Virus record (IMG/VR): IMGVR_UViG_3300034283_001030
Coordinates: 1 to 38,102 of that record
DNA from: a virus
DNA length: 38,102 nt
Direction: 5' to 3' (one strand)
Each line of letters begins with the position of its first letter. The stretch's first letter is position 1. Below are positions 2,564-35,873 of this stretch, one piece after another. The translations under genes were made by a program, and so were the position numbers. The notes below the pieces were generated by a model that saw only the letters and a list, made by a program, of their open reading frames with translations, made no database searches and had not been told where the DNA came from.

Positions 2564-2661
2564 TTTCCTAATAATAGTTTTTTTTTGGAAATACGCTTAT
2601 TAATGAGAGCGTAATAATTATTTTGTAGAGCGTTTTGGTACCACATTAATCGTAGCACATA

Positions 2662-2690
2662 CAAATATAAATATACTTACTTTTACCAAA
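2662..2690 (-). promoter_or_regulatory. Candidate promoter for scaffold and capsid genes
   Basis: On the coding strand TATATTTG (2669-2662) matches the Bacteroidota housekeeping -7 consensus TAnnTTTG. A TTTG at 2690-2687 lies 17 bases upstream, slightly closer than the usual 19-21. The same segment contains TATTTATA (2673-2666), the motif found at other gene junctions of this phage, about 100 bases before the ATG. Host sigma or gp55-type recognition are both possible. The start site is not determined. Confidence 0.5.
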
Positions 2691-2722
2691 AAATAAGAAA
2701 CCCTCCTTTTTTAAGGGAGGGT
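2688..2722 (-). terminator. Rho-independent terminator after protease gene
   Basis: On the coding strand ACCCTCC (2722-2716) pairs with GGAGGGT (2706-2700) around a 9-base loop. A T-rich tail, TTTCTTATTTTTT, follows. It lies about 30 bases past the protease stop and is the clearest terminator in the window. Confidence 0.85.
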
Positions 2723-2729
2723 CAATCAA

Positions 2730-2742
2730 GGGATACTATCCC
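2730..2742. repeat. Perfect short inverted repeat GGGATACTATCCC
   Basis: Six-base arms flank a single central base. It sits between the protease stop and the terminator. It may form a small 3' hairpin on the mRNA; CCC at 2740-2742 can alternatively pair with the GGGG at 2747-2750. Confidence 0.5.
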
Positions 2743-2750
2743 GAGAGGGG

Positions 2751-3353
2751 TTAAAATATTGGACAGCTACCATGAGCACATAAGATCTCTCTTATGATTT
2801 CATTAGCTTTATTGTAATCTTTTAATGTTTTATCTAAACTTTCATACAAAGGCATCATCCAAGATCCTGGATTAGATGGAGTGGATACAAAATCCCAGCA
2901 AAGTAGATCAAAATCATCTTGAACTTCTAATGTTTCTCCCATTTGTTTAACTGAGCCCATTCCTCTAGATGATACACCAACGGTGATACCGGAGTTAATA
3001 AGGGCTTGTAAGATATTTCCAGAGGGTGTAGGTAAGATTTCAATCTTGCCCATAATGTTATCGCCATCCCACCAAATATCTTTAATGTTATGACATACAT
3101 TTTTTAAGTTAATAACTGTAGATTCGGGGTGATCTAACTCACCAACCGCTCTATTTTGTTTAACAGAATCCATGTACTTGTTGATTTCTCTATCCCAAAG
3201 TTTTTTACTGTAGTATCTTCCGTTACCGTTTTTTACTTGAGCGGTAGCTAAAATACCTTCTACCAGTGGTAAGCCAGTACTACCTTTAGCTTCTGAAAGT
3301 TTCATAGGTGTTGGCTGAAAGGATATAGTTTCAATAAGTAAGCTCTTATCCAT
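2751..3353 (-). CDS. gp21: Prohead core protease, gp21-like
   Basis: This 200-residue serine protease (MEROPS U9 type, herpesvirus-assemblin-like fold) matures the prohead by cutting scaffold, capsid and internal proteins. The expected catalytic elements are visible: GELDHP with His75, VGVSSRGMG with the nucleophile Ser at 128/129, and a following WDFVSTPSN segment around Asp154. Length matches T4 gp21 (about 210). An N-terminal MKLSEAKG around residues 17-24 could be a self-cleavage site. The start overlaps the stop of the 706-residue gene by one base, implying translational coupling. A terminator lies downstream. Confidence 0.92.
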   Translation of the reverse strand: MDKSLLIETISFQPTPMKLSEAKGSTGLPLVEGILATAQVKNGNGRYYSKKLWDREINKYMDSVKQNRAVGELDHPESTVINLKNVCHNIKDIWWDGDNIMGKIEILPTPSGNILQALINSGITVGVSSRGMGSVKQMGETLEVQDDFDLLCWDFVSTPSNPGSWMMPLYESLDKTLKDYNKANEIIREILCAHGSCPIF

Positions 3354-5473
3354 TATCTTAGTCTTAAATTCTTTCTAGTAATCAACTCTCTAACCATTCC
3401 ACTCCAAGATTCTGTCTTAGTTTTTGAATGTGCTTCTATCTTCTTGGTAAGCTCTTCTTTTTCAGTAGGGCTTAGCTTTTTCATAAACTGAGTTTTAAAA
3501 GCAGGATCGGCATCCATTTGCTTAACGTATTCTTTGAACTTCTCTGGATTGCTATCGGCCATCCGCAACATCATTGCAGTGGTTGGCATACTAGTAGCAT
3601 CTACTTCTAATACAGGACTATCTTCAAGAACGGTATCTTCCATCATAGATTTATCCTTCATTCTCTTAGCTGCTCTAGCTTTTTGCTTTTCATATAGAGC
3701 TTTCTTCTTCTCTAATAAGGCAATATCTTTCTTAAGTCCTTTTACTGCTTCCTTATCAACGTACTTAGCCACTTGGTCACTCTCAGTCATAGTCATTTCA
3801 TTCATAAGTTCGTCAATTTTTTCTTGAGCTTTGGTAATTCTATGATCCCAAGCAGCTACTTCACCCATCTTTTCAATTTCTTTGATGTGCTTTTCAATAT
3901 CTCTTTTTTTAGCTTCTGAAAGTGTTTCATGCTTTGGGGTGTTGATTCCTTTCATTCCCTGTCTTACTTCTTCTTCATCTTCGGAACCTGCAATACCTGT
4001 CATATCTAATTCATCTAATTCATACTCATCAGTTTTATCATTAATTAAAACTCCATTTTCATAAGATGCAATTGTTTTATCACTATCGTACCAGTCAGCA
4101 ATACTAAAAGTACCGTCTCCACTATCTTCTATGTGTTGAACGTATCCGTTACGGCTCTCTTCTTTAGCTTGCTTCATAGCATCTCTTAAAGACATTCCAG
4201 ACCCTTCAGAAATCATTCCTTCCTTAACTCCTAATTTTTCAAAGTTTAATAGAGAGTTTGCTAGGTATTGATCTAATCTACCTTTAGTATTAATTGTCGA
4301 TAAGTTGAATAACATTTGCTTTTTAGTCGCAGGGTTCATTCTACTTCCTTCAATAAAAGTAAGAAATTTTTGTTTAGCTTTTTCAAAACTAGGCTCTCCC
4401 CAAACTTCTGGTGCTAGTCTTTCTAGAGTTGATTTGATATCAATAGTATCTGCTATACCTTTAACTTTGTTAGGAAGCATTTTTCTTCTGTACTCTTCTT
4501 CTCCTTCTTCTAAAGATGAACCGGTTGCTTTTTCGTAAGGAGGTAAATCTTGTTCTGTATAACCTAAATAACTTCCGTATTTCAAAGCAGTTTTATAATA
4601 CTCATCTGCTTTTAAAAAGTCTCCTTCCCTATAAGCTTTAAGGCCTTTGTCGTAGTTGTGATAAGCTATCTGCTCATTTTTTTGATCAGCTTCATAATCT
4701 CCATCAGAACTTCCGTAGAATACTTCTGTTACTTTCTTTTCTAAATCAGCAATTTTCTTTTCTAATTCTGCTTTTCTTTTTAATTGCTTTTCACCTGTTG
4801 GTTTAGTTTTATTAAGCATATTTAATTCTGATTTGTAGATTTTTAAATCAGCCTCATCACTATGCTTTGATTCGTTTAATTTAACAGGTTCCATTCCAGA
4901 TGATTTGTATTTACCTGTTAATTTTACTTTAGGTTCAATACCGAGTGCGTAGTTACCATAAATATCTTTAGGTAGACCGGGGTGTTCTGATTTGTATCCT
5001 AAGCCTTTAACTCCGAATTCACCGTCTTTAACGTAGAATAAAGGATCTTTCTCAAGGTTTTTAACTACGATTGCTTTGATCTGGTCTTCAGTCTTTTCAG
5101 CATGCTTAGGATCTCTCATTTCAACATAATAACCTTTAAGCATTTCTGCTGTAGAGATGTTATTGTTGTTCTTCTCCTTGTAATCATAGCCTTTAGTTTC
5201 CATCTCTTCCACTGTTTCATCAGTTTCTTTAAGTTCAGCTTTAACATTTTCGTTAAAGATCTTAAACCAATTTTGAGTTTGTGGCTTACTATCAGCAATT
5301 AATACGATATGTTCGTTGATAATACCCTTCTCGGTAAGAGAGTGAATAACTTGATCAAACGTTTGAACGTTAGTAATATACTGAGGGAATTGAGCTTTTG
5401 CTTCTTTTAAGAAGAGTTCTTTATTGCCTTTACCTTCTTTGATAAGATTGTATTGATTTTGTAGGCTTTTCAT
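3353..5473 (-). CDS. Large putative prohead core/internal head protein
   Basis: The 706-residue, highly charged and mostly helical protein has no enzyme motif I recognise. It begins MKSLQNQYNLIKEGKG, with an aliphatic-x-Glu pattern near residue 12 like a capsid-targeting/cleavage site. Residues about 270-305 (AYREGDFLKADEYYKTALKY) look like one TPR-type helix pair. Several coiled-coil stretches follow, and the C-terminus is basic. It occupies the place of the small T4 core genes 67/68, between portal and protease, so an internal or core role is likely but inferred. The start is fixed by the conserved-looking N-terminus and by CTATTTATAACATATG directly in front. It is far larger than T4 core proteins. 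Confidence 0.8.
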   Translation of the reverse strand: MKSLQNQYNLIKEGKGNKELFLKEAKAQFPQYITNVQTFDQVIHSLTEKGIINEHIVLIADSKPQTQNWFKIFNENVKAELKETDETVEEMETKGYDYKEKNNNNISTAEMLKGYYVEMRDPKHAEKTEDQIKAIVVKNLEKDPLFYVKDGEFGVKGLGYKSEHPGLPKDIYGNYALGIEPKVKLTGKYKSSGMEPVKLNESKHSDEADLKIYKSELNMLNKTKPTGEKQLKRKAELEKKIADLEKKVTEVFYGSSDGDYEADQKNEQIAYHNYDKGLKAYREGDFLKADEYYKTALKYGSYLGYTEQDLPPYEKATGSSLEEGEEEYRRKMLPNKVKGIADTIDIKSTLERLAPEVWGEPSFEKAKQKFLTFIEGSRMNPATKKQMLFNLSTINTKGRLDQYLANSLLNFEKLGVKEGMISEGSGMSLRDAMKQAKEESRNGYVQHIEDSGDGTFSIADWYDSDKTIASYENGVLINDKTDEYELDELDMTGIAGSEDEEEVRQGMKGINTPKHETLSEAKKRDIEKHIKEIEKMGEVAAWDHRITKAQEKIDELMNEMTMTESDQVAKYVDKEAVKGLKKDIALLEKKKALYEKQKARAAKRMKDKSMMEDTVLEDSPVLEVDATSMPTTAMMLRMADSNPEKFKEYVKQMDADPAFKTQFMKKLSPTEKEELTKKIEAHSKTKTESWSGMVRELITRKNLRLR

Positions 5474-5476
5474 ATG

Positions 5477-5485
5477 TTATAAATA
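5477..5485 (-). promoter_or_regulatory. TATTTATAA junction motif
   Basis: Exact TATTTATAA on the coding strand, 3 bases before the ATG at 5473, in a 20-base gap after the previous stop. The 16 bases CTATTTATAACATATG are identical to the site before the gene at 13313. Confidence 0.6.
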
Positions 5486-5493
5486 GGTATTGT

Positions 5494-5718
5494 TTATTTC
5501 CAAAGATCTTTATACTCCATACCTTTAGCTGCTTTCCTGGTTTTAGCTTTATTAACTAATTTCCAGCCCATTTTCAAGTAGTAATTACGTGAAGTACCTT
5601 GGGCATTCTTGTTTGGATTAAAAGCAGGGAGGGTATTGTAGCCGCCAGCTGCTGCAGAGGTTGATACCTCTTTGAGTTGCTTCCTAAGCTCGTCTTTTAG
5701 CTGCTGTCTGGTGGCCAT
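5494..5718 (-). CDS. Small basic protein, possible head-core component
   Basis: The 74-residue product has an N-terminal amphipathic helix (MATRQQLKDELRKQLKEVST), a Gly/Asn-rich linker and a Lys-rich C-terminal half. I do not recognise the family. It lies between the portal-side 277-residue gene and the 706-residue gene, in the position of T4 genes 67/68, and its LKE near residue 17 could be a gp21 site. It starts at an ATG sharing one base with the previous stop. Confidence 0.7.
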   Translation of the reverse strand: MATRQQLKDELRKQLKEVSTSAAAGGYNTLPAFNPNKNAQGTSRNYYLKMGWKLVNKAKTRKAAKGMEYKDLWK

Positions 5719-6551
5719 TATAATTCATTAACAAGTTCGTAGTACTGTAACAAGTTAATGATTGCATCGTTGGTAACTTTTTCTGTTTTCTCTAGAGGCG
5801 TTACATACTTAAGAACTTCTGTGATTTTAATCTTAAGTACTTCGTCACTAATCTCACTGGTTTTTTCCTGGAGTAGTTGTTGTACTTCGACGATTCTTGT
5901 ATTATAATACTCTTTTAACTTGTCTGTATTGTCTACTGAGGTAATTACCTCTCTTAAAACCTCTTTCTGTTTCACTGTCAAGTGATCATACTTCTCATTA
6001 AATTTTTCAAGAAGCATTTTGTATGTTAAGATTCTAATATCTTTTCCATACCCTTTATATTCCTCCATTAATTCATCAGCAGGAGCTGCTACAGGAGTTT
6101 TCGTTAAGTGTTCAAGGATTGTAAGTTTATTATTAATTACCGTCTCAGGAGCTACTTTTTCTGAAGATTGATTTTCGATTAGGTTGTTTAGAGCTGCAAA
6201 TACTTTGTAATTAGTAACTTTAGCTTTAAAGAATTTTTCTACACTGTAGTTATCTTTAATTTCTTTAACTAAGTTATATTTTTGCTTTCTGATCTCAGAT
6301 CTTTTTAACTTGGTAGATGCTTCTACTAGAGTGTTAACAACCATTTCAGCTTTACCTTCGCTTAGGTTTTTATAAGCTGTAACTTGCTCGTAAAGTTTAT
6401 ATTCCTTCCCTAATTCAGTGTTAACGAAATACTTTTTAAGAATATTGATAGCGGCAGAATTCTTACCTTCTAACGTATCAGAGGTGATCTGTCTTACCAG
6501 AAGTTCAAAAAGAAGTCCTGTATTTCTAAATTTTGAATGTTTTATTGACAT
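5718..6551 (-). CDS. Conserved helical head-region protein of unknown function
   Basis: The 277-residue product is helical and charged. Its N-terminus (MSIKHSKFRNTGLLFELLVRQ) resembles proteins encoded next to the portal gene in marine T4-like phages. I see no catalytic motif or membrane segment. The location between portal and protease suggests a prohead role, which is inference. The ATG is preceded, 15 bases away, by a variant junction motif. Confidence 0.8.
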   Translation of the reverse strand: MSIKHSKFRNTGLLFELLVRQITSDTLEGKNSAAINILKKYFVNTELGKEYKLYEQVTAYKNLSEGKAEMVVNTLVEASTKLKRSEIRKQKYNLVKEIKDNYSVEKFFKAKVTNYKVFAALNNLIENQSSEKVAPETVINNKLTILEHLTKTPVAAPADELMEEYKGYGKDIRILTYKMLLEKFNEKYDHLTVKQKEVLREVITSVDNTDKLKEYYNTRIVEVQQLLQEKTSEISDEVLKIKITEVLKYVTPLEKTEKVTNDAIINLLQYYELVNEL

Positions 6552-6566: not shown

Positions 6567-6575
6567 TAATAAATA
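6567..6575 (-). promoter_or_regulatory. Variant junction motif TATTTATTA
   Basis: One mismatch to TATTTATAA on the coding strand, 15 bases before the ATG at 6551 and in the 36-base gap after the portal stop. Confidence 0.45.
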
Positions 6576-6587: not shown

Positions 6588-8474
6588 TTATTCCCTAATT
6601 TGACTCTCGTCTAATAAACCATTTGCTTTTCTTTCTGATTCAAAAATCATTCTTTTCGGTGTCAAGCTATCAAGAATTTTTTTGTGTTTCGTAAATTCTT
6701 TTTTAGTTGATTCTAATGCAAACGGTGATGTATTGTCTCTTCCGTAACCCTGTTGGTCATCGGTCTTCATTGCTTTTCTACCTAGTCTATCTAACCCTAA
6801 AGGATCGTTAGTGGTGTTGATATTTGAAGCTTTTTCTTCTGGGCGTCCTATAACAGGCTGGTCTCTGTCGTATCCAGCAGGTACTGCACCTGGTCTATCG
6901 TAAACTCTACCTTTACCGTACGATGTAGCGATGTCGTGAGGAGTACCGTAAGTCTCTCCGGTTTCTAAAGGATCGTTTCCTTCGTTTTCAATCTGAGATA
7001 ACCTAAATTTACGTTTAGCATCTTCTTTAACCAACTCTCTCATCTCTTCATATTCATCAGAGCTCAAGTGGAAGATGTTATCGTAGATCCAATCAGAAGA
7101 AATTAATTGAGAATCCATCATTGTTTGAGCTAGCTCCATCTTTTCTTTTAATAACATTACTCTTTCCTGATCGTAAATGATAGAAGGAGTTGTTAATGAC
7201 AATTCGAAGTTAGTTAGTGATTCGTCTCTGTAGCCCTGAATGTATAAGTGAACAAAAGCAATCTTATACAGTTCAGAAACCATAATCCTCTGGATTTTTT
7301 CAACCGTTCTACCAAAGCGAATATCTTCGGCAGCAAGAGTTGCTTTACCTTGTAGCTTTTCATCATAGCCAAGGAATGCTTTAGGGATTCTTAATGCAGC
7401 AAATAACTTATCTCTTAGGTAATTTACGTCTGTGATACCGTCATACTGTAATCCTCCTAAAGTCTCAATCTTAGTTGATGTGTCATTACCTCTCATGGGG
7501 ATATAGAAATCCTCCATTAAGTTTTGCATGTTATACTTTAAGTTATACTCACCAGTAGTTTGGTCAATATAAGGAGTACGCTTCATTTTAGAGATAGCCT
7601 TCTGCATAAAGTTCTCTACTTCTGCAGGAGGAATACCGCCTACGTTCATATAGAAAATACGCTTCTCAGGAGCTCTTACAATTCTATGAACCAACATCGC
7701 ATCTTCCATCAAGGTATATTGCTTGAATAGTTTACGGGCAGGTTCAATGTATGAACGGCCATATGGAAGGAAGTTAACATCTGTTAGTAGACGGAAGTGA
7801 GCTACTTCGTAGTTATCAAAGTAGATTGACTTAGCATCATTCTGATTTGGAGTCTTAAAATATCCATAAGTATCAGCAGCTAGTCCATCAGGATCGTATC
7901 TAAATCTAACAGCAGTTGGATTTTCTGGATCATAATGCTCTTGTCTTTCAATGTTAAATGCAGCGAAAGGAATTACATTATAAACACCGTATTTTTCTGA
8001 AGCTTCTAATTTTAAAAAGAAGTCTCCATACTTACACATGTTTCTAATCCACCAACTCAAGTTAAACTCAACGTTCAATACATCGTAGAATAAGTTGTAG
8101 AGAATTTTTTGAATATTCTCATCGTTTGATCTGATGTGGAGAACTTCTCCCATATCGTTCTTGAGAGTAGATTCTTCTGAAAGGATATCAAGGGCAGAAG
8201 CAATAATTGCATCTGTATCCATTGCATCATATTCAGAATATAACTGGGTTCTTAGTGTTTGGTAGTTAAAAGAAGATTGGTATCCGTAAAGAGAGGTAGG
8301 TGATGTTGTGTAGATTCTATTGTATCTAGCCATCAAAGAGTTATTTTCTAACTCTCCCGACATCTGAATTTGGTTAGTATCAGCTACTTTTAACTGATCT
8401 CCACCGACGTTCCGGATAATAACATCTGTAGAAAATAATCTACGTAATCTCGAAAATATACTGGTATCAGCCAT
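6588..8474 (-). CDS. gp20: Portal vertex protein, gp20-like
   Basis: This 628-residue protein forms the dodecameric portal through which DNA enters and to which the neck attaches. Length is somewhat above T4 gp20 (524). Diagnostic stretches are the N-terminal RYNRIYTTSP and YDAMDTDAIIASALDI, the central MEDAMLVHRIVRAPEKRIFY and the GKATLAAEDIRFGRTVEKIQ segment near residue 380. The C-terminal 130 residues are charged and probably disordered. It follows terminase with a 28-base gap carrying a junction motif. No tail sheath or tube gene separates it from terminase, unlike T4. Confidence 0.95.
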   Translation of the reverse strand: MADTSIFSRLRRLFSTDVIIRNVGGDQLKVADTNQIQMSGELENNSLMARYNRIYTTSPTSLYGYQSSFNYQTLRTQLYSEYDAMDTDAIIASALDILSEESTLKNDMGEVLHIRSNDENIQKILYNLFYDVLNVEFNLSWWIRNMCKYGDFFLKLEASEKYGVYNVIPFAAFNIERQEHYDPENPTAVRFRYDPDGLAADTYGYFKTPNQNDAKSIYFDNYEVAHFRLLTDVNFLPYGRSYIEPARKLFKQYTLMEDAMLVHRIVRAPEKRIFYMNVGGIPPAEVENFMQKAISKMKRTPYIDQTTGEYNLKYNMQNLMEDFYIPMRGNDTSTKIETLGGLQYDGITDVNYLRDKLFAALRIPKAFLGYDEKLQGKATLAAEDIRFGRTVEKIQRIMVSELYKIAFVHLYIQGYRDESLTNFELSLTTPSIIYDQERVMLLKEKMELAQTMMDSQLISSDWIYDNIFHLSSDEYEEMRELVKEDAKRKFRLSQIENEGNDPLETGETYGTPHDIATSYGKGRVYDRPGAVPAGYDRDQPVIGRPEEKASNINTTNDPLGLDRLGRKAMKTDDQQGYGRDNTSPFALESTKKEFTKHKKILDSLTPKRMIFESERKANGLLDESQIRE

Positions 8475-8493
8475 TGTGTAGTGTTAATATAAG

Positions 8494-8501
8494 TATAAAT
8501 A
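8494..8501 (-). promoter_or_regulatory. Junction motif TATTTATA before portal gene
   Basis: Coding-strand CTATTTATAC lies 19 bases before the portal ATG. The upstream stop is adjacent (TAACTATTTATA), an arrangement also seen at 13327 and 19365. Confidence 0.55.
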
Positions 8502-8502: not shown

Positions 8503-10080
8503 TTAATAAATCCAGCTTATATCTTCTTTTCCTCCTTTACCATTGTCGATCTCATAGGGATTAGCTACGTGAGAAGGTAGGTATACCCCTTGGTAGGATG
8601 GTTTAGTTACTGTGATATTATTTAAGGCGTTTCGTGTTAAGTCTAATCCTTGCTGTCTAAATTTCAAAGCAGTATCCCTAATATACATAGCGATACCAAA
8701 AGCCATTACTAAGTCATCGTTATACCCACCCTGTGCTTCTGCTTTCCCATTCTTCCAAATAAAGACTTTCATCTCCTCTATTAAACGTTTTGATTGAATA
8801 GTAACTGCTTTCTCATTAACATATTCTTGGAACTTACCTACTACTAAAGGCCTAGTTCTTGAATTCATAGAGAATCCTGCAACCATATTCGAATTGTGAT
8901 CGTATTGGTCGAAGTATGAATCGGCAGTTACGTTACCTCCCTTGGGTGAATAGTATAGGTTATCATAACCTCTCTCGATTACGGTCTGAATAGTTGACCA
9001 CCCTATCGATGCATTCTCAATTACTAGTAGTGCTTGATTGTATTCTGTTGCTATACCTACTAGCAAATGACCAAATTCCTTAGTTCCTAACTGTCCTTTA
9101 TACTCTCCAATCTGAGTGTTGTTTTCAATATCTAAGATATGAAAGGTTGAATAGTCTTTTCCATCACCTCTTGCTACGTCCGCTACTACCATGTAGCTTC
9201 TTGAGTAGTCAACAGGCTCCCATATCCATAAATTCATATCAGCACCCCGTCTTTCCATGGGATCTTTCATGTAAGTCTGTTGATAGAACTCTAAATACTC
9301 TCCGTAGAAAACAGTATCTCCAGAAGTAGCAAAGTCACAATCACACTCCTGTGCTGCAAGTCGTGGATCTCCTAGTAGATTATCTTGAGCATCTCTCCAG
9401 GCTTGGTTTCTTTCCGGGTGAACATACCAAGGTAATTTAATTGGTAGGAATTCATTCTCTTTTGCTTCAGCTCTAACCCAGGTTTGGTGAAACCAGTTAC
9501 CAGTTCCGTAGGGAGTTGATAGTACAATCGCACCACCACCCGTTGCTAACGTCTGTTGAGCTGATGCCCATGTTTCGGCAATGTTATCAATGAACGCCGC
9601 CTCGTCGATCAACAGTAGTGATACAGCTTCTGAACGAGCAGCATCTGAATTTGATGATTTAGCTGTGATTTTTGACCCGTTTGACAGCCGTAAACTTAGT
9701 TTATTCTTCTCTTGTGCATCGATTCTTAACCAAGAAGGTAAGTTATCGTACATAAATTGTACTTTTGATACCAAGTTACGTGCAGTTGCCTGTGTTGTTG
9801 CAAGGGTTAGAACGTTTTTATCCTTATGAAAAAGCATTAACCATAGTGCATATCCTGCTCCTAAAGTCGAAATACCTAACTGTCTTGACTTTAAAATGAT
9901 AGAATACGGGTTATCTTGGAAGTGGGTTAGTACTTTTTCCTGAAAAGGGTATAAATGAAATAAGATTCTACCCCTTAGTGGATGTTGAATGTAGCAGTAT
10001 TTCTTCATAAAGTGTACGGGATCTACCACGCACTTTACATACTCCTGCCTTATAACTGCTTTTAAATCTGGTTGACTCAT
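8503..10080 (-). CDS. gp17: Terminase large subunit, gp17-like
   Basis: This 525-residue packaging motor has an N-terminal ATPase and C-terminal nuclease. The ATPase shows a T4-type deviant Walker A, SRQLGIST (65-72), Walker B LLLIDE (155-160) and coupling motif STP (188-190). The nuclease shows Asp301 (VVADVARGDGKDYST), Glu355 (LLVIENASIG) and Asp455/456 (GYNDDLVMAFG), paralleling the T4 catalytic triad. It is a little shorter than T4 gp17 (610), mainly at the N-terminus. The ATG overlaps the upstream signal-peptide gene by 4 bases. No small terminase subunit is evident nearby. Confidence 0.97.
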   Translation of the reverse strand: MSQPDLKAVIRQEYVKCVVDPVHFMKKYCYIQHPLRGRILFHLYPFQEKVLTHFQDNPYSIILKSRQLGISTLGAGYALWLMLFHKDKNVLTLATTQATARNLVSKVQFMYDNLPSWLRIDAQEKNKLSLRLSNGSKITAKSSNSDAARSEAVSLLLIDEAAFIDNIAETWASAQQTLATGGGAIVLSTPYGTGNWFHQTWVRAEAKENEFLPIKLPWYVHPERNQAWRDAQDNLLGDPRLAAQECDCDFATSGDTVFYGEYLEFYQQTYMKDPMERRGADMNLWIWEPVDYSRSYMVVADVARGDGKDYSTFHILDIENNTQIGEYKGQLGTKEFGHLLVGIATEYNQALLVIENASIGWSTIQTVIERGYDNLYYSPKGGNVTADSYFDQYDHNSNMVAGFSMNSRTRPLVVGKFQEYVNEKAVTIQSKRLIEEMKVFIWKNGKAEAQGGYNDDLVMAFGIAMYIRDTALKFRQQGLDLTRNALNNITVTKPSYQGVYLPSHVANPYEIDNGKGGKEDISWIY

Positions 10081-10481
10081 AGGCCGAAGAAGATAGTTAG
10101 TAAGATAGTTAATCCTGTAACTATATAAGCTCCAGTCTTTGCTGCTTTCAGCTTACCGATTTCTTTACCGTAAGTTGTTATGATTGAGTCTTTATTGTCA
10201 ATAACCTCTTTATATTTCTTTTCGTTATCTTTAAAAAGAACGATTGCACTATCTCTATGCAAGATAATGGTATCTTTAGATAAGATAATTTCCTGTAGGT
10301 TATGAATAGAATCACGGGCAAACCCTAATTGAGTTCCGCAGTAAATTCTCTCTTGTTTAACCACTAAGGCTTTCTTCAGAGTAGCACAAGGTACACAGCA
10401 GGTATCACTTGAAGCTTTCTGAGAATAGAGCGGCGACATCGCTATTAGACATAGCACTAATACGCTTAAGATCTTCTTCAT
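10077..10481 (-). CDS. Signal-peptide protein with C-terminal membrane segment; possible outer spanin or unimolecular spanin
   Basis: The 134-residue product has a signal peptide (MKKILSVLVLCLIAMSPLYSQ, cleavage likely after the SQ region), a periplasmic part with Cys cluster CCVPC (residues 28-32) and helical segments, and a C-terminal hydrophobic segment (about 115-134). It overlaps the upstream membrane-anchored gene out of frame by 77 bases, an architecture typical of Rz/Rz1 spanin pairs that fuse inner and outer membranes at lysis. No good lipobox is seen; Cys11 follows VLVL but is early for one. With export signal and C-terminal anchor it could also act alone like a u-spanin. Location directly before terminase is not diagnostic. 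Confidence 0.75.
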   Translation of the reverse strand: MKKILSVLVLCLIAMSPLYSQKASSDTCCVPCATLKKALVVKQERIYCGTQLGFARDSIHNLQEIILSKDTIILHRDSAIVLFKDNEKKYKEVIDNKDSIITTYGKEIGKLKAAKTGAYIVTGLTILLTIFFGL

Positions 10482-10743
10482 GTTCTTTTTGTTCTCTAGC
10501 AGCTTCTGCTGCGGTTTTACTTAACTTATTTTCTAGCTTATTAATTTTACTCTTCTGGATATCGACCATAGAGTCTAATTGCTGTACTTTAATGTTGTTT
10601 GCTTTGATTTCGTTGTTTAGCGAATCGATTCTCCTTTCGTAAATGGAAACATCGGGTAGTTTCTCCGTCGGTTTAAAAAAGCGACTGTATACAATCCCTC
10701 CACCAAAAACCAGGACAATAATCCAAATTATAGCTTGTTTCAT
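10405..10743 (-). CDS. Membrane-anchored coiled-coil protein; possible inner spanin (Rz-like)
   Basis: The 112-residue product has one N-terminal transmembrane segment (about residues 4-22) and then a long coiled coil (about 35-92). This is the layout of an inner-membrane spanin reaching into the periplasm. Its 3' end overlaps the exported 134-residue gene in another frame. I assign the spanin role only from architecture; no endolysin or holin was found beside it. A generic membrane-anchored scaffold is the alternative. Confidence 0.72.
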   Translation of the reverse strand: MKQAIIWIIVLVFGGGIVYSRFFKPTEKLPDVSIYERRIDSLNNEIKANNIKVQQLDSMVDIQKSKINKLENKLSKTAAEAAREQKEHEEDLKRISAMSNSDVAALFSESFK

Positions 10744-11003
10744 GACTTATGTATTTTTAACTTAAGAGTTCCGGTTCCTTTTATAACTCGGTGCCACTCA
10801 TGTCTTTTTATAAATATAGACTCATTTAAGGAAGATGGCAACTTATTATCTAACTGTATTTGCCAATCTGTTTCTCCAAGTATCTCCACGGTTCTATCTT
10901 CATCATCTCGATGCCATAGTAATTCTATGGGGTCAATGTTTTCGTCGAACTCACGAATGGTATACTCATCAGTAACTTCTATGTCTCTGTAAGGTTTCTC
11001 CAT
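10740..11003 (-). CDS. Small cupin-like conserved phage protein
   Basis: The 87-residue protein contains LLWHRDDEDRTVEILG, a WQIQLDN segment and a C-terminal IFIKRHEWHRVIKGTGTLKL. The alternating strands with His-x-Arg and a closing GTG turn resemble a minimal cupin barrel, and I recall similar small proteins in T4-like phages of aquatic bacteria. Substrate and role are unknown. It overlaps both neighbours by 4 and 25 bases. Confidence 0.75.
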   Translation of the reverse strand: MEKPYRDIEVTDEYTIREFDENIDPIELLWHRDDEDRTVEILGETDWQIQLDNKLPSSLNESIFIKRHEWHRVIKGTGTLKLKIHKS

Positions 11004-13316: not shown

Positions 13317-13325
13317 TTATAAATA
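13317..13325 (-). promoter_or_regulatory. TATTTATAA junction motif
   Basis: Exact motif on the coding strand, 3 bases before the ATG at 13313 and one base after the preceding TAA. It is identical over 16 bases to the element at 5471-5486. Confidence 0.6.
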
Positions 13326-17441: not shown

Positions 17442-17450
17442 TGATAAATA
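17442..17450 (-). promoter_or_regulatory. Variant junction motif TATTTATCA
   Basis: One mismatch to TATTTATAA on the coding strand, two bases before the ATG at 17439, in a 14-base gap. Confidence 0.45.
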
Positions 17451-19354: not shown

Positions 19355-19363
19355 TTATAAATA
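19355..19363 (-). promoter_or_regulatory. TATTTATAA junction motif
   Basis: Exact motif on the coding strand, 10 bases before the ATG at 19344, directly after the upstream stop (TAACTATTTATAA). Confidence 0.6.
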
Positions 19364-24209: not shown

Positions 24210-24218
24210 TTATAAATA
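24210..24218 (-). promoter_or_regulatory. TATTTATAA junction motif
   Basis: Exact motif on the coding strand, 6 bases before the ATG at 24203, in a 22-base gap. Confidence 0.6.
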
Positions 24219-29289: not shown

Positions 29290-29639
29290 TATTGCGGTGT
29301 TTGTAAGTTAAGTAATGATTGTTGTAAATCCAAATTCTCTTGTCTTAATTGTGTAATTTCTTGCTGCAACGCCTGTACCTCTTCGTTAACCGCTTCACCT
29401 CCAATATAATCTCCACTAGTTTTCACTAGGTACTCGTGTGAGTTGGTTTCTCCGTATTTAGGGATGGTGTAGAATAAGTTTTGATAAGCTGAGAAGAATT
29501 CTGGAATAGTGATTGTGTCTGCTACTGGTGGTTGGTCGGCAGAGGCAGTAACTCCAAATTGTGTAAATTGAGTATTGACAGTTCTTGTTAGTTCTGCTTT
29601 ATTATACTTTAGGACCTCTATGTTAATTGTTTCGACCAT
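29289..29639 (-). CDS. Small protein with C-terminal coiled coil
   Basis: The 116-residue protein has a mixed N-terminal part and a clear heptad coiled coil at the end (VQALQQEITQLRQENLDLQ). It may oligomerise and link the two large neighbouring tail proteins. Both junctions overlap by one base, so it is translationally coupled to them. No family recognised. Confidence 0.8.
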   Translation of the reverse strand: MVETINIEVLKYNKAELTRTVNTQFTQFGVTASADQPPVADTITIPEFFSAYQNLFYTIPKYGETNSHEYLVKTSGDYIGGEAVNEEVQALQQEITQLRQENLDLQQSLLNLQTPQ

Positions 29640-30742
29640 TATCCATTTACAACTTTGAAGTAGTAGCTATTATCCAATACTTGAGTAGTTCCCCCAATAA
29701 GGGTTTTTATAAGGATCTTATAATATCTCTCAGGTTCTAACCCGTCCATATATACATCAAAGTAGTTGCTGTCTGAATCTGCGCTAATCTTTGTATACTC
29801 AGTATCAAAATCAATAACGATTTCGTCAGTATCTAAATCTTTTAAAGCCCAGTATGAAGCTGTGGGCAGGTAGCAGTTTGTTGTATAGAAAGAAGAGGTT
29901 GTAAATATTCTAGGTGGAAATTGAGGTCTAGCATTTACTCTAAATCTTTGAATTGCTTGGGGGAGATACTGTTGTGTGTTGTTAGGTAGTGTAACTACAA
30001 CGTCGGAAGATGTTACAAATGTCTGTGTTGATGATCCGGTATTAAAGGTGTAGTCGGCCCATCTAAATTCTAACTGTGGAGGGTAGATTGTATTTGTATC
30101 TACTGAGAAGTATTTTAGTTCAGCTGTTTTATCTACGTTAAATTCGTCAGAGTCAGCCTGTTTAATGATAAATCCATTATTGACGATTGAACCGCTGTAC
30201 CAAGCTAGAACTGTATTTGTTACGTTAAATGATAGGTCAAAATCACTTCTATACTGTAAAGAAGCAGTTTGAATATAAGTAGAGCTAGTATACCAGTTTC
30301 CTCCTCCTTCATACCCGGCGGTATACGATGCGGTAGCACCTGTTGCTCCGAAACTTGAAAGTGCCCAGGCTCCTGAACCAGAGCTTGTTTTGTATTTCCA
30401 ACTAACTCCATTTTGAGTCTGAGGTGAGTCTAAGTACTTACCTGTTCCGTTTTGCCAAGATCCAGATACTGCGTAATTATATAAAGTTACCTCTTCTGCT
30501 AACCCTGTCACCTTCGCCATTGAGGTTCTAAAGTATACGGCTAAAGAACCGCTAACTCTATTTTGAAGGACATCTTGAATTTGACTCTGATTGAACTGTA
30601 CTAAAAATCTACTTACAGCGGGAGAGCCATCTACAGCCACAGCGGTGGTTGCTTCTATAATTTCATCTATCCCGGTATTCATTGCCGGGTATTCGCTATA
30701 CAGGGTAGCGTCTTTCTCTGGGAAGAGTTTGTAAACAGCCAT
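29639..30742 (-). CDS. Tail/baseplate protein with DNRLRE-like beta sandwich
   Basis: The 367-residue product starts MAVYKLFPEKDATLYSEYPA and continues with a VSRFLVQFNQ segment. This is the typical opening of DNRLRE-type beta-sandwich domains, which are often carbohydrate-associated. The C-terminal 100 residues (FRVNARPQFPPR, then YYKILIKTL) look like another beta domain. It lies between gp6 and the giant tail protein and probably belongs to the baseplate wedge or a fibre connector. A junction motif sits 3 bases from the ATG. Confidence 0.82.
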   Translation of the reverse strand: MAVYKLFPEKDATLYSEYPAMNTGIDEIIEATTAVAVDGSPAVSRFLVQFNQSQIQDVLQNRVSGSLAVYFRTSMAKVTGLAEEVTLYNYAVSGSWQNGTGKYLDSPQTQNGVSWKYKTSSGSGAWALSSFGATGATASYTAGYEGGGNWYTSSTYIQTASLQYRSDFDLSFNVTNTVLAWYSGSIVNNGFIIKQADSDEFNVDKTAELKYFSVDTNTIYPPQLEFRWADYTFNTGSSTQTFVTSSDVVVTLPNNTQQYLPQAIQRFRVNARPQFPPRIFTTSSFYTTNCYLPTASYWALKDLDTDEIVIDFDTEYTKISADSDSNYFDVYMDGLEPERYYKILIKTLIGGTTQVLDNSYYFKVVNG

Positions 30743-30745: not shown

Positions 30746-30754
30746 TTATAAATA
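30746..30754 (-). promoter_or_regulatory. TATTTATAA junction motif
   Basis: Exact motif on the coding strand, 3 bases before the ATG at 30742, in a 16-base gap after gp6. Confidence 0.6.
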
Positions 30755-30758
30755 TGAA

Positions 30759-32618
30759 TTATAGAGAAACTACTCTACCTTTAATATCTGTGTCTGGATA
30801 TTTAACTTCGAAGATCATAGGATCAATAGAAGGATAGATAACATTCCCCTGTGTGGCGATAGTAGTATCGTATGCAAACTCAGAATATCCTTGACTAATC
30901 CCTGTTTTATTTGAGATTGTAACAGATTTTACTGTCTGCACTCCGGAGACTTTATCGAGAAGAATAAAAAGATCTTTTAGTATGATTGGCTGGTTAAATT
31001 GCCAATTCTCAGTCTTAAAGAAGCTTTTTAACTCCGACAGGCAACTTAGTAACACTTCGCTACTAATAAAGTTCGGTCTAACTACGATTTCAAAATCACA
31101 TCCGATATTGATTACATATCCATCTTTGATAGTTACAGTGTCTCCTGCTATTCTATACTCTGAAAGATAAGTACTTAGGTTTTGCTTTACTGTATCGGAA
31201 ACCTGGGTTAGGTATCCGTTTGCGTTGTAGCCTAGCACATACAGGTTTAATGTTGTTGGGATCTGACCGGGTAGGGTAGTTTCAGAAGCTTTAACTGGTT
31301 GAACAAAGGCTTTCGCTACGGATCCGTAATTTGAAGGCATTGATAACGCTCTAATCAGATAGTCGTTGGGAGTTACGTTTCTCAATTGTGATTGATAAGC
31401 AACTAGAGTATTTTGTCTAATCTCTTCTAGAGTGTCTCCATCACCTCCGCCGGAAGCAGCTCTAGGGTTATTCACAGCGAGAGTACTAAAGATGTAATTT
31501 GCGGTAGTTGTATTTAAGTTGTTGTTAATAAAATTAATGTTCGTTGTATTAACAAAACTAGTCAGTGTGCTTGCTTCTACGTTTGCAGCAATACCGCCGC
31601 CTACTAAGTACCTAACTGTCAAAGTTGTATTTGCAGGGGCAATACCGTAAGTATCTGTATATAAGAAGTTAGTGGGGTCGAATGCAGTTGTTAACTTAGA
31701 TTGCTCGTAAGGTAATCCTAAACCTACGTTGTTCGGGTTTGGTGTTATAACTTCATCTACATCGTTGGTAGTGCCTGATCCGAATTGAATCTCTAAAGTG
31801 TTTTCTGATGTAAATCTAGTAGTAAATCTTCTTTGTATTTTTTCTAACTGCATTAAGTATGGAGCATCACTGTCACTGTAGTAGTTAGGATCATTAGTAT
31901 TTGTATTCCTAATCGGAACATAAACCATCTCTTGCCCTAAATAAGGTACCTCGTACCATACATTGCCGTCTGAGTCAGTTATATCTAGAATTTGAATAAT
32001 GTCTGTATTTTGAAGAGTAACTGTTGCAAATGCTTCAGGTGCTGCAAAATTATATGTAGTTGTTTGAATTTGCCCGGAAATACCCTTTCTTGATTTCTTA
32101 AGAAGGTAGTACTGTGGTGCTCCTGCAGAAATTTGATAAACTGTTGTTTCAGTAGGGTCGAAAGAGCTTGAAGAAGAAAAATCAATTGGATCTTGAACTA
32201 GGAAATAATTATCTCCTGTTGCTGATTTAAGTTGAGTGTTTTGAGCAAATAGTAGTGCGTAATCTAAATCTGGAATGTATACACTTCCGGATAGCTTAGA
32301 GGGTACTTGTTGGTAAAAATCAATATCAACAGTTGCAGCTTTGGTTACTTTAGGTCTATACCCTAACATGTAGGCTAGTGTATATAGACTTGTAGATTGC
32401 TTTGCATACTGTAGGTAGGTTTCTTGTATTTGGTTATCTAGGTAAAATGATAATACATCACCTACATACGCAGACATTTCCATAAACATCATCCCGGGAG
32501 ATGATGGAGAGAAGTCGTTATAGGTGTTAGGGAAGTAGGTTTTGGAAAAATCAACAAGGAGGTTCCTCAACCCTGCAAAATCCCTATTAAAATATTTTAT
32601 ATCTTTATTTTCAGCCAT
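30759..32618 (-). CDS. gp6: Baseplate wedge protein, gp6/J-like
   Basis: The 619-residue protein matches gp6 of contractile tails in size (T4 gp6 has 660) and pattern. The N-terminal part has YFNRDFAGLRNLLVDFSKTY and SPGMMFMEMSAYVGDVLSFY, classic for gp6 of T4-like phages. A baseplate-J type core follows (EEIRQNTLVAYQSQLRNVTP, then NDYLIRAL). gp6 dimers form the ring around the baseplate hub. The start overlaps the end of gp25 by 8 bases, the usual gp25-gp6 pairing. Confidence 0.93.
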   Translation of the reverse strand: MAENKDIKYFNRDFAGLRNLLVDFSKTYFPNTYNDFSPSSPGMMFMEMSAYVGDVLSFYLDNQIQETYLQYAKQSTSLYTLAYMLGYRPKVTKAATVDIDFYQQVPSKLSGSVYIPDLDYALLFAQNTQLKSATGDNYFLVQDPIDFSSSSSFDPTETTVYQISAGAPQYYLLKKSRKGISGQIQTTTYNFAAPEAFATVTLQNTDIIQILDITDSDGNVWYEVPYLGQEMVYVPIRNTNTNDPNYYSDSDAPYLMQLEKIQRRFTTRFTSENTLEIQFGSGTTNDVDEVITPNPNNVGLGLPYEQSKLTTAFDPTNFLYTDTYGIAPANTTLTVRYLVGGGIAANVEASTLTSFVNTTNINFINNNLNTTTANYIFSTLAVNNPRAASGGGDGDTLEEIRQNTLVAYQSQLRNVTPNDYLIRALSMPSNYGSVAKAFVQPVKASETTLPGQIPTTLNLYVLGYNANGYLTQVSDTVKQNLSTYLSEYRIAGDTVTIKDGYVINIGCDFEIVVRPNFISSEVLLSCLSELKSFFKTENWQFNQPIILKDLFILLDKVSGVQTVKSVTISNKTGISQGYSEFAYDTTIATQGNVIYPSIDPMIFEVKYPDTDIKGRVVSL

Positions 32619-33021
32619 TGCTTAGATTTATTTGTGCAGTATCGTTTATACCAGTATTTACTATACTATATGTAATTGTTATTAGAATTGTATTCCGGTC
32701 TGGTGTCGACTGTATTTGTACTACACCTTGAATGTTTGGAAAGTATTTTTCTATAACAGATAAAATATAATTTTCAATTTCTGATACTCCTTGGGTACTA
32801 ATTTGTTGAAATACGAATTTCCGTAAACCTGCTCCGAAGCCAGGGTTAAAAACTCTCTCACCTTGACCTGTTAATAGGAAATTAATGAGGTTTGTCTTTA
32901 TTGCTTCTTTAGTAGTATAGGTGGGCTTGAAGACGGCGTTACCGTTAAACGGCAGCGACACACCTACTGCTTTACTAGTAGCTAAATCAATAGGGTATAT
33001 TCTTCTAGCGCCGTATGCCAT
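32611..33021 (-). CDS. gp25: Baseplate wedge protein, gp25-like
   Basis: The 136-residue protein is of standard gp25 length and has the conserved GERVFNPGFGAGLRKFVFQQ (about 74-93). gp25 nucleates sheath assembly with gp6 and gp53. The start shares one base with the preceding stop. Its presence shows that the phage has a contractile tail, although sheath genes are outside the window. Confidence 0.93.
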   Translation of the reverse strand: MAYGARRIYPIDLATSKAVGVSLPFNGNAVFKPTYTTKEAIKTNLINFLLTGQGERVFNPGFGAGLRKFVFQQISTQGVSEIENYILSVIEKYFPNIQGVVQIQSTPDRNTILITITYSIVNTGINDTAQINLSNG

Positions 33022-33401
33022 TATTTCTTACTCATAAGACCCATAATTTGGTCTAAGTTAACCTCTCCGGGAGGTAATGAAGATCCTTCTCCAGTTGTGT
33101 TTGCACTTACAGGTGGTCTATATCCAGGTTGTTGACCGAAGCTTACAGCATCGTTTGAGGTCATTGAAATATTTCCATTTCTCGATTCCATCATTTCACC
33201 TAGTAGCTCTCTGTATTTACCTCTTGCATTAACAGTAGGTACGGTTGGTGTGCTTGTTAATGTTTGAACTGGTGGGGCATAACTTTCTTGAATAACTGTC
33301 TTAGGAGCACGTACTGCTTCTAACAGGATGTCTTTGATTTCTTCCTGGATAGCTTCCTTTACGGCTTCTTTAATAAGTTTTTTAAATAATTTGGTATCCA
33401 T
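33021..33401 (-). CDS. Small protein with amphipathic N-terminal helix
   Basis: The 126-residue product begins with a strong helix rich in Lys, Glu and Leu (MDTKLFKKLIKEAVKEAIQE, continuing to DILLEA near residue 29), then a Pro/Thr/Gly-rich disordered region. It looks like a docking or targeting helix with a flexible tail. Position between the helical tail gene and gp25 suggests a baseplate accessory factor, but the IKE and LLE sites would also fit prohead processing. No family recognised. Confidence 0.75.
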   Translation of the reverse strand: MDTKLFKKLIKEAVKEAIQEEIKDILLEAVRAPKTVIQESYAPPVQTLTSTPTVPTVNARGKYRELLGEMMESRNGNISMTSNDAVSFGQQPGYRPPVSANTTGEGSSLPPGEVNLDQIMGLMSKK

Positions 33402-33404
33402 CTT

Positions 33405-33413
33405 TTATAAATA
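33405..33413 (-). promoter_or_regulatory. TATTTATAA junction motif
   Basis: Exact motif on the coding strand, 3 bases before the ATG at 33401, in a 16-base gap. Confidence 0.6.
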
Positions 33414-33417
33414 TTTC

Positions 33418-34362
33418 TTAATCGGCTTTTAGATTGTCTCTATCAATAATCAGTTTCAACTCCTCAATTAGTACTTGGGGGTTTTGGGTGAATGAAGGTT
33501 CGGTCTGAAGTAAAACGATTCCTTGTTTATTTTTAGCTTGCCCTATCTTTTGGTTTAGAGTTGGGCTAAAGTATTTGTCTACGATCTCAAAGGTGAATCC
33601 TTTGTAGATAGTATCAGTATTACTATTCTCTGCTGTAACTACTACTGATGCTAGGTTCTTAATATCATCCCCAACTGGGTTTGGTCTTTTGCCACATTTT
33701 TCGAGAACCCTATCAATTACTAATAATAGTCCTAATAGTATGTTTATTACATTTGCAGCAGTCGATACGTAAGTAGTTCCGTTCTCTACAACTTGTTTTA
33801 ACCTAACTAATTTAGGGTTACCTTCTTTATCGAAAGTCAATAATGTTCTTATATCGTCTAGGTCTGCAAGAAGGGAGGTTACAAATCCAGGGACAGTTGG
33901 AGCTGCTTTAACGCCTATTGCAGATGCGGTTTTTATAAGGTTGATAGCGGTTACTGCGTTGATACTTCCTTTTAATAGACTGTTAACTACTAGTAAGGAT
34001 TGATTTATTATATTAACATACTTGGCTGTATTCTCTAGATCGGTAAGTAGAGCGTTACGGATAGTTGTTGCTTTTTCTAAAATAGGTTGGGAGGGGCATA
34101 GGTCGGGTAACTGAGGGTTTCCTGTTTCTAATCCTTCGATTCCTAAATCTGCTGCTAGGTTTGTTAATTGGGTGATTGCTTTATCTCGTACAATAGCTAC
34201 TTTTGAGTTTATACTTTCATTAAGTCTATCAAGGGCGGTAGTCTGTGTTGCTGCTGTTATGATTGCCGTTGTCGCTACTTTTTGCAGAGCGAGTCTCCTC
34301 TGTAACTTTTTCCTATCCTGTCTCTCCTGCTCTCTTTGGTTTTCTAGTTCTTGTGGTGTCAT
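33418..34362 (-). CDS. Conserved helical baseplate-region protein
   Basis: The 314-residue product has a highly charged N-terminal helix (QREQERQDRKKLQRRLALQK), a long hydrophobic helical middle (about 110-215) and a C-terminal mixed domain with YKGFTFEIVDKYFSPTLNQK and QVLIEELKLIIDRDNL. I recall this C-terminal pattern in baseplate clusters of aquatic T4-like phages. It may line or plug the hub; that is inference. It begins one base inside the stop of the gp5-like gene. Confidence 0.8.
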   Translation of the reverse strand: MTPQELENQREQERQDRKKLQRRLALQKVATTAIITAATQTTALDRLNESINSKVAIVRDKAITQLTNLAADLGIEGLETGNPQLPDLCPSQPILEKATTIRNALLTDLENTAKYVNIINQSLLVVNSLLKGSINAVTAINLIKTASAIGVKAAPTVPGFVTSLLADLDDIRTLLTFDKEGNPKLVRLKQVVENGTTYVSTAANVINILLGLLLVIDRVLEKCGKRPNPVGDDIKNLASVVVTAENSNTDTIYKGFTFEIVDKYFSPTLNQKIGQAKNKQGIVLLQTEPSFTQNPQVLIEELKLIIDRDNLKAD

Positions 34363-35501
34363 TATACAGTATAGTTAGAGTTAGAGAGCATTGCTTTTAA
34401 ATTTATTGAATTTAATCTTGTCGTTAAAGTATCAGCAACACCTTTTAATGATGCTACAGGTCCTCCACTGTTTGCAGCGAGTTTACAGGCATTAAGCAAT
34501 GTTTTAAGTATGTCTACTATTTCTTCTAGTTGAGCTACAGCAGTATTACCTAAAACTAACTGTTCGTTTGCGTTTTTAGATCCTAGGTATATTTTTCCAG
34601 TTTGCATTATAACTTCTGATGCGTCTAGATTTACACTTAATAAAGAGCTTAGACTAATACTTTTTACAGAGCTTAGTAGTAGGTGATCTTCTGTTGTGTT
34701 GAACACTAACCTACCTGAATTTACAAGTATTTGTTTTCCTGTGTATTGATTTGGGTTAGTTGGGGGATCTGTCTTGTAACTAAAGTAGGTGGTGCTTGAT
34801 GCTACTAAGGGTATATTCTGAGTTGATGTTAAATAAATTGAAGATGGGTCTAAATTAATATCTTCGACAGTTGGTAAGTAGCCAACAGATCCCCTATCTC
34901 CTTGCCCGTTTCTAATTAGTATAATAGGGTCTCCACTATTACTTCCAGTCGACCAAGGTGTTATAGGTTTATCGTTCAAGAGTATCGTAGAACCAAACCT
35001 AATAGAGTTACCTAATCTTCCTTCAAGTACAAAATCACCTTCAAATTTACGTAAGGGTTTAATGTTTGATTTCTCTTTGAAAGTTTTACCTAGAACGATA
35101 TCGCTACTACCATCTTCTACTCTACGTACAGCTCCTGCTTCAGTCTGTGTGTAATCTCTTTGTTGTGACTCGGGAACTTCTGTATTTCTAAAAATGTTAG
35201 GAATTCCGTTGTGGTGATTACTATTCCAAACGTTGATCGGAGTAATATAATAATAAACCTTCTTGTAGTTATTGTTTTGAATATCTGGTGAAGGTAGGGA
35301 GAATATATAGACTAATTCTTCAAGTAGTGGGAAGTTAGAGATGTTTGAAAAATAGGGTTTAGCAAATCCTTTTGATTTGTAATTACCCTTGACAACTTCA
35401 AAATAGATTGATCCAAGTCCGTTATACTCTCCCACATTGGTAAAGTACTTACTTGTATCATCTAATACAACATCCTTAACTACTGCAACTTGAAACTCCA
35501 T
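34362..35501 (-). CDS. Baseplate hub/spike protein, gp5-like without lysozyme domain
   Basis: The 379-residue protein has an N-terminal OB-fold-like region (FQVAVVKDVVLDDTSKYF, then GLGSIYFEVVKG), a central segment with KPLRKFEGDFVLEGRLGNSI typical of gp5-type hub proteins in aquatic phages, and a strand-rich region that may form a spike helix (ILVNSGRLVFNTTEDHLLLS). The C-terminus is a helical tail. The T4 gp5 lysozyme domain is absent, so peptidoglycan degradation must come from another protein. It sits at the start of the baseplate cluster. Confidence 0.82.
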   Translation of the reverse strand: MEFQVAVVKDVVLDDTSKYFTNVGEYNGLGSIYFEVVKGNYKSKGFAKPYFSNISNFPLLEELVYIFSLPSPDIQNNNYKKVYYYITPINVWNSNHHNGIPNIFRNTEVPESQQRDYTQTEAGAVRRVEDGSSDIVLGKTFKEKSNIKPLRKFEGDFVLEGRLGNSIRFGSTILLNDKPITPWSTGSNSGDPIILIRNGQGDRGSVGYLPTVEDINLDPSSIYLTSTQNIPLVASSTTYFSYKTDPPTNPNQYTGKQILVNSGRLVFNTTEDHLLLSSVKSISLSSLLSVNLDASEVIMQTGKIYLGSKNANEQLVLGNTAVAQLEEIVDILKTLLNACKLAANSGGPVASLKGVADTLTTRLNSINLKAMLSNSNYTV

Positions 35502-35836
35502 TACTTATCTTCTTTGATATTGTTAATCTCTTTCATTAACTGTTCTCTCTCCTCATCAGAGATTCCGAATGAGTCTGTAGCAGAGTCTTGATTCTGGAAG
35601 ATACGTTGGATGATAGTTGCAACTTTTACAAGCTGATCATCATTCTTAACCCCGATCTCTAAATATTCCTTAATCAAAGGAACGATCAAAGTAGCATCGC
35701 CGGTATCTTCAATTAGAGGACGTAATTCAGAAATAAGAGTTGAAATCTGCTTCTCTTTCTTCTTCTGATTGTCGTAAATCTCTTCTAGAAGGTCTGCGAA
35801 TTTCTTGTTCTTAAATATTAATTTATCTAAACTCAT
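35501..35836 (-). CDS. Small helical conserved protein
   Basis: The 111-residue protein is a helical bundle or coiled coil (NQKKKEKQISTLISELRPLI, then IVPLIKEYLEIGVKNDDQLV) ending with an acidic SDEEREQLMKEI segment. I recall similar proteins near the hub gene in aquatic T4-like phages; function unknown. A junction motif 14 bases upstream separates it from the sigma-factor gene, so it probably starts the baseplate unit. Confidence 0.8.
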   Translation of the reverse strand: MSLDKLIFKNKKFADLLEEIYDNQKKKEKQISTLISELRPLIEDTGDATLIVPLIKEYLEIGVKNDDQLVKVATIIQRIFQNQDSATDSFGISDEEREQLMKEINNIKEDK

Positions 35837-35850
35837 GAGTAGTCTATTTT

Positions 35851-35859
35851 TTATAAATA
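35851..35859 (-). promoter_or_regulatory. TATTTATAA junction motif
   Basis: Exact motif on the coding strand, 14 bases before the ATG at 35836, in the 37-base gap after the sigma-factor gene. Confidence 0.6.
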
Positions 35860-35873
35860 GAAAGTAGTAAGGT

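Follow-up and report, generated by a model that had tools for sequence, protein, structure and literature searches.

A -10-type box as the probable late promoter of a Far-T4-like phage, with a candidate gp55-like sigma factor

The 38,102-nucleotide (nt) stretch analyzed here, referred to as the window (positions 1 to 38,102 of the IMG/VR virus record IMGVR_UViG_3300034283_001030), is a fragment of a T4-like myovirus whose main genes are all located on the minus strand, and it carries a short repeated box, TATTTATA(A/T), before a number of its genes. Very probably, this box is a -10-type late promoter without a conserved -35 element in a Far-T4/Immutovirus-like phage of Bacteroidota. The factor that reads it is most likely a gp55-like sigma factor of the phage itself, and the copies ending 3 nt before an ATG would give leaderless messages. 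Computation revealed an enrichment of the box and a homology of the sigma factor, as well as a strand bias, a late/early split with absence of the box from the early block, conservation gene by gene with variable spacing, adjacency to terminators and a run of A anchored to the box. Because of these latter five features, and since translation signals are present separately, there is strong evidence that the box is a promoter and not a translation signal.

The nearest isolate to the window phage is Flavobacterium phage immuto (terminase 63% identical), followed by Microcystis phage Mel-JY01 and a 484-kilobase (kb) uncultured phage, whereas Rhodothermus phage RM378, which serves as reference for the Far-T4 group (PMC4360716), is more distant. 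For the comparisons, we used 80 viral loci at the terminase, 80 at the sigma gene, the full immuto genome, and a 166-kb relative, G006, whereby gene starts in G006 and in the loci were taken from a simple longest-open reading frame (ORF) caller. These relatives are only partly independent of each other; counts after removal of near-duplicates are the safer ones.

Occurrence of the box in the window and in related phages

The exact 9-mer TATTTATAA occurs nine times on the coding strand of the window and not at all on the opposite strand, and the core TATTTATA 12 times versus none. TATTTATA is found within 30 nt upstream of the start in 8 of the 41 window genes, where an order-2 Markov model gave a mean of 0.27 and a maximum of 4 in 5000 runs, and near starts (up to 30 nt) it is the commonest among all 56 rearrangements of its own letters. 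Thus, the motif that a first-pass annotation had described is real in its strict form. The same annotation had seen it in almost every short gap between genes, which is too strong: among the 15 junctions with a gap of at least 13 nt, nine carry the exact box and two more a one-mismatch version (6551 and 17439), while four have neither. Three of these four (15053, where a variant had been claimed, 18630, and 21082) present a host-type -7-like sequence in place of the box, and the capsid gene (1600) has neither of the two at its junction. With one mismatch allowed anywhere, 43 copies were counted over the window versus 39 expected, with no excess over shuffles, and therefore the loosened motif by itself counts for nothing; the variant before 6551 can nevertheless be believed, given that the exact box stands at this site in 43 of 56 orthologues. 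The distant copy claimed before the gene called scaffold was confirmed, and a copy inside gene 10740-11003 had been overlooked. The boxes and an adjoining terminator are as follows:

35851..35859, minus strand: late box TATTTATAA, 14 nt before the ATG of 35501-35836, which is the late gene next to the sigma gene; conserved in 71 of 79 orthologues
33405..33413, minus strand: late box TATTTATAA, 3 nt before the ATG of 33021-33401 (leaderless spacing); 61 of 65 orthologues, 55 at spacing 3
30746..30754, minus strand: late box TATTTATAA, 3 nt before the ATG of 29639-30742 (leaderless spacing); 29 of 41 orthologues, all at spacing 3
24210..24218, minus strand: late box TATTTATAA, 6 nt before the ATG of 23547-24203
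19355..19363, minus strand: late box TATTTATAA, 10 nt before the ATG of 18655-19344
17442..17450, minus strand: possible variant box TATTTATCA, weak, 2 nt before the ATG of 16795-17439
13317..13325, minus strand: late box TATTTATAA, 3 nt before the ATG of 12318-13313 (leaderless spacing); 7 of 10 orthologues
10808..10816, minus strand: late box TATTTATAA within gene 10740-11003, 64 nt before the ATG of 10405-10743; a copy also in G006 at 129275
8493..8501, minus strand: late box TATTTATAC, 18 nt before the portal ATG (6588-8474); 74 of 78 orthologues, spacing 12-26
6567..6575, minus strand: variant late box TATTTATTA, 15 nt before the ATG of 5718-6551; exact TATTTATA in the orthologues at spacing 12-19
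5477..5485, minus strand: late box TATTTATAA, 3 nt before the ATG of 3353-5473 (leaderless spacing)
2688..2721, minus strand: intrinsic terminator (CCCTCC...GGAGGG with a T-run), immediately preceding the box at 2665-2673
2665..2673, minus strand: late box TATTTATAT, 101 nt before the ATG of 1628-2563; a like arrangement in G006 at 136435

In G006, TATTTATA[A/T] occurs 39 times on the coding and twice on the opposite strand. De novo counting of 8-mers, with no motif supplied, yielded TATTTATA as the top upstream word in G006 (30 genes versus 2.15 expected) and as the first in the late half of immuto (16 versus 0.75 expected), whereas the early regions yielded different, host-type upstream words (TATCTTTAGGTA and TATTTAGGTATC). 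Within 40 nt of a start, the late box is present in none of the 69 G006 genes at 60-100 kb versus 30 of 148 genes elsewhere (P 8e-6). The comparison of junctions in related phages that had been proposed with the first-pass annotation demonstrated that the box is kept at the same genes across dozens of relatives (portal, 74/78; g38, 71/79; g35, 61/65), whereby other orthologue sets are almost or entirely boxless (terminase, 1/79 with box; gp25, 0/63; gp6, 0/58). Furthermore, a terminator lies just upstream of the box in 8 of 39 cases in G006 and 7 of 28 in immuto, compared to about 1% of random positions. No conserved -35-like element was detected upstream of the late box (Kullback-Leibler divergence at most 0.16 at positions -40 to -2), and our literature search found no paper describing this box in a phage.

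The early genes of G006 (about 83-98 kb) and of immuto (60-77 kb) have a second, very uniform promoter of host type, which consists of GTTG followed by TTC[GT]TAT[CA]TTTAGGTAT (immuto ATATTTAGGTATC) and often by GGTTATG at the start codon. In the window, the host-like -7 sequences at 18630, 21082, and 15053 (TATCTTTA, TATATTCG, and TATATTTA, respectively) lie 4-6 nt before the ATG and are possibly early or middle promoters. Two further sense-strand boxes, likewise overlooked before, are located within a 1687-amino-acid gene (25797-25805 and 28246-28254) with no start close by, and might be internal promoters or chance occurrences. The main genes of the window are:

30759-32618 and 32611-33021, minus strand: baseplate wedge
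20156-21082, minus strand: primase
13959-15053, minus strand: gp47-like
8503-10080, minus strand: terminase
6588-8474, minus strand: portal
2751-3353, minus strand: protease
1628-2563, minus strand: gene called scaffold in the first-pass annotation
2-1600, minus strand: major capsid

Spacing of the box and predicted leaderless starts

Four window copies (before 5473, 13313, 30742, and 33401) end exactly 3 nt before the ATG, where five had been claimed, and the copies before 24203, 19344, 35836, and 8474 end at 6, 10, 14, and 18 nt, respectively. With near-duplicates removed, an ORF start lies within 30 nt of 176 coding-strand boxes, and the spacing of these boxes is bimodal, with a sharp peak at 3 nt (27 boxes, compared to 6 at 2 nt and 4 at 4 nt) and a broad hump at 10-20 nt (101 boxes), whereby 9 boxes lie at 0-2 nt and 22 at 4-9 nt. 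In G006, 11 of 30 boxes are at spacing 3, and immuto has spacing-3 genes with boxes at 10515, 74567, and 142462. The genes starting at 33401, 30742, and 5473 do begin at the ATG that follows the box, as third-position substitutions dominate from codon 2 on, and there is no alternative in-frame start within the first 20 codons. Here, the box thus stands at a fixed, leaderless distance before a verified start codon.

At spacing 3, TATTTATA occupies positions -12 to -5 relative to the A of the ATG. Counted from the RNA start, the -7 element of flavobacteria is also found at -12 to -5 (PMC6847099, PMC9723704), and because the box then takes the position of the host element, the spacing-3 messages should be leaderless. 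It had been argued that 3 bases are too close for a -10 box of the same gene. This does not hold, since T4 late boxes and the flavobacterial -7 element sit that far from the RNA start, so that a box ending 3 nt before the ATG has the usual distance, provided that transcription begins with the A of the ATG. In leadered copies, A is found at positions 3, 4, and 5 after the 9-mer in 89, 75, and 74%, respectively, whatever the distance to the ATG. The ATG carries a signal of its own, with A at -3 and at about -11 to -14, which is anchored to the ATG and not to the box; A at -3 is a positive translation signal in Flavobacterium (PMC6847099).

These observations suggest a mechanism in which the phage sigma factor (35874-36608, minus strand) would bind host RNA polymerase and read the late box, whereby the RNA would start, mostly with an A, 4 nt (range 3-5) downstream of the 9-mer. 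At spacing 3, this would place the RNA start at the A of the AUG, while other spacings would leave a short leader, and the early genes would use a separate promoter of host sigma-A type.

The candidate gp55-like sigma factor gene and alternative explanations

The candidate for the factor that reads the box is encoded immediately upstream of the first boxed late gene:

35874..36608, minus strand: putative gp55-like late sigma factor, 244 amino acids; sigma region 2 at about residues 11-112, helical C-terminal domain at 150-244

A search of the window for sigma region 2 picked out this gene, and its immuto counterpart (immuto26A_153), which is annotated as hypothetical, was independently retrieved with a T4 late-sigma profile. 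Among the 29 family members, 28 match Sigma70_r2 (best 2.7e-5) and 28 match the T4 late sigma family phrog_234 (best 1.6e-4), whereby the window protein itself matches the latter weakly (0.041). The predicted structure matches sigma factors almost exclusively, including sigma-2 chains, with T4 gp55 (7d7c_F) as the second fold match (Z 10.3 over 121 of 137 residues). The gene is single-copy in each of four relatives with a match, including immuto and G006. Judging from sequence and structure model, it is probably a remote homologue of T4 gp55 and the cognate factor of the box, and because sigma factor and box co-occur in four lineages, we infer that this sigma reads TATTTATA. A PDB sequence search with the sigma profile gave no relevant match. 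Residues 150-244 form a helical, highly conserved domain, which when modelled alone (predicted local distance difference test, pLDDT, 89) gave no convincing fold match, only weak TFIIB-like and other helical ones. The T4-type clamp phrog_223 (gp45) and a beta clamp were not found in G006, G007, and G008, whereby the sequences of G007 and G008 are possibly incomplete and a divergent clamp might have escaped detection. Because the gp45 clamp was not found in these three relatives and the C-terminal domain of the sigma family has no convincing fold match, late activation may differ from that in T4.

A number of points weigh against this overall interpretation. The sigma match is remote, with a Pfam score of the window protein below the cut-off and a structure model of pLDDT 72 and predicted template modelling score (pTM) 0.43, and a direct hhalign comparison of the sigma family with just the T4 gp55 sequence was not significant (E 0.06). 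Moreover, in LR756508, which encodes a 39% sigma homologue, TATTTATA is not enriched over the 100 kb examined, the major capsid gene lacks a box near its start, and 52 of the 260 near-duplicate-removed coding-strand boxes have no ORF start within about 100 nt.

Host RNA polymerase might recognize the box by means of a host sigma factor while the gp55-like protein has another role, as there is a resemblance in length and position between TATTTATA and the -7 element TAHHTTTG of flavobacteria (PMC6847099). We consider this improbable, since the early genes already have a separate host-type promoter (in G006, a conserved GTTG 24 base pairs upstream of TAT[CA]TTTAGGTA), the late boxes have no upstream element, and a sigma homologue was found in every phage in which this box family was seen, namely immuto, G006, Mel-JY01, and RM378. 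It could also be that the promoter is real but the spacing-3 copies are not leaderless, the RNA beginning elsewhere and the gene being read from upstream transcripts. Leaderless messages are indeed few in host flavobacteria (5.5% in F. psychrophilum; PMC9723704). However, the spike at exactly 3 nt with hardly any box at 0-1 nt, the A at the predicted start in leadered copies as well, and the conservation of spacing 3 across orthologues make this explanation unlikely.

The first-pass annotation had mainly read the box as a translation-start or RNA-processing element next to the ATG in a phage whose host makes no use of Shine-Dalgarno sequences, with the distant copy pointing to a promoter. The host part holds up for the group of the window phage and, like the four window copies and the 27 of 176 boxes at exactly 3 nt, would fit such an element. 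However, the spacing is not fixed as for a Shine-Dalgarno-type element but ranges from 3 to more than 100 nt and differs between orthologues of one gene, drifting for instance from 12 to 26 nt in the portal gene. Moreover, boxes come after terminators, overlapping and internal genes of the same operons have none, the A-run follows the box and not the ATG, and in Mel-JY01 the box lies 32-35 nt from the ATG with a Shine-Dalgarno sequence between. A translation or RNA-processing element is thus highly improbable, and a separate role of this kind is not needed since spacing varies freely among orthologues and the translation signals are anchored to the ATG on their own. Finally, TATTTATA is the exact reverse complement of TATAAATA, which T4 gp55 reads (PMC2988020, PMC2984593), so that the true form of the box could be the T4 one on the opposite strand, driving antisense late transcription. 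This seems hardly conceivable, because nearly all genes run in one direction with no ORF after an antisense reading, the box stands 3-30 nt ahead of sense starts and follows sense terminators, and in RM378, whose genes lie on both strands, TATTTAAA precedes genes of either strand in sense orientation. The promoter reading stands, on the strength of the upstream terminators, strand bias, gene-wise conservation and box-anchored A-run.

Relation to known promoter systems

The late system of the window phage is probably a new variant of the T4 late-promoter system. With the T4 late promoters (TATAAATA, gp55) it shares an 8-base-pair box without -35 element, present in dozens of copies before late genes, in excess and strand-specific, and a small phage-encoded sigma factor. 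In contrast to T4, the central AA of the box is changed to TT, the sigma factor is only remotely similar to gp55 and has a longer C-terminal domain, and the T4-type clamp was not found in the relatives named above. The T4 consensus TATAAATA itself occurs just six times on the G006 coding strand and is not concentrated at starts, and in the T4 late region (50 kb checked) it lies 14-28 nt from the ATG, with none at leaderless spacing. In T4, about one helical turn separates the late box from the RNA start downstream of it, and the first position of the box is numbered -13 (PMC2988020).

In RM378, Rm378p020 is the sigma homologue (hhalign E 7e-8), whereas Rm378p144, the other sigma-annotated gene, is not the relative. 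The RM378 box TATTTAAA differs by one base from that of the window phage and has an ORF start within 40 nt in 26 of 35 cases, with peak and floor at 5 nt, i.e., at -13 to -6, like the T4 late box; its genes, unlike those of the window, lie on both strands. Over the whole RM378 genome, TTATTTAAA ranks first among the upstream words and is found with genes of both strands, mostly 5-9 nt from the ATG, and our literature search found no description of this promoter set. Mel-JY01 has a 37% sigma homologue, and four of its late genes, those for portal and tail tube among them, are preceded by TATTTATAT at a distance of 32-35 nt, their leaders containing Shine-Dalgarno-like GGAG or GAGG. Small G006 genes at 25957, 26280, 26524, 26948, 27283, 43633, and 44164 also have strong Shine-Dalgarno-like leaders (ACGGAGGTAACAAATG or GGAGGTGAGCAATG), which is odd for a host group without such sequences; ribosomal protein S21 was considered as the cause, but a search of the phage for its gene found none.

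Cyanophage late promoters (NATAAATA, S-PM2; PMC2984593) likewise place a T4-type late box before structural genes but differ in box sequence and host group. The flavobacterial primary promoter (TTTG/TAHHTTTG) has the position -12 to -5 in common with the box, whereas its sequence is another one and the late boxes lack a -33 element; the early promoters of the phage are of that type. In mycobacteria and other bacteria, leaderless genes (PMC4633059, PMC3160421) also have a -10-like signal at fixed distance before the ATG, but here phage late genes are concerned, in a group whose host rarely goes leaderless. More tentatively, and at slightly less than even confidence, the system could be a clamp-independent gp55-type one that places late promoters systematically at leaderless distance, whereby about one third of the late messages would start at AUG although host messages rarely do, and leader length would be tuned to translation start in the host (leaderless or short in Bacteroidota, about 30 nt with a Shine-Dalgarno sequence in the cyanobacterial relative).

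Lakes and seas commonly harbour Far-T4 phages, in which the description of 2015 reported no T4 core transcription-regulation genes (PMC4360716). They now gain a candidate late sigma factor and a precise promoter, which makes late gene maps readable from sequence. A T4-type promoter box is seen changing along with its sigma factor (TATAAATA, TATTTATA, and TATTTAAA), and the results suggest that phages use leaderless messages where Shine-Dalgarno sequences are absent.

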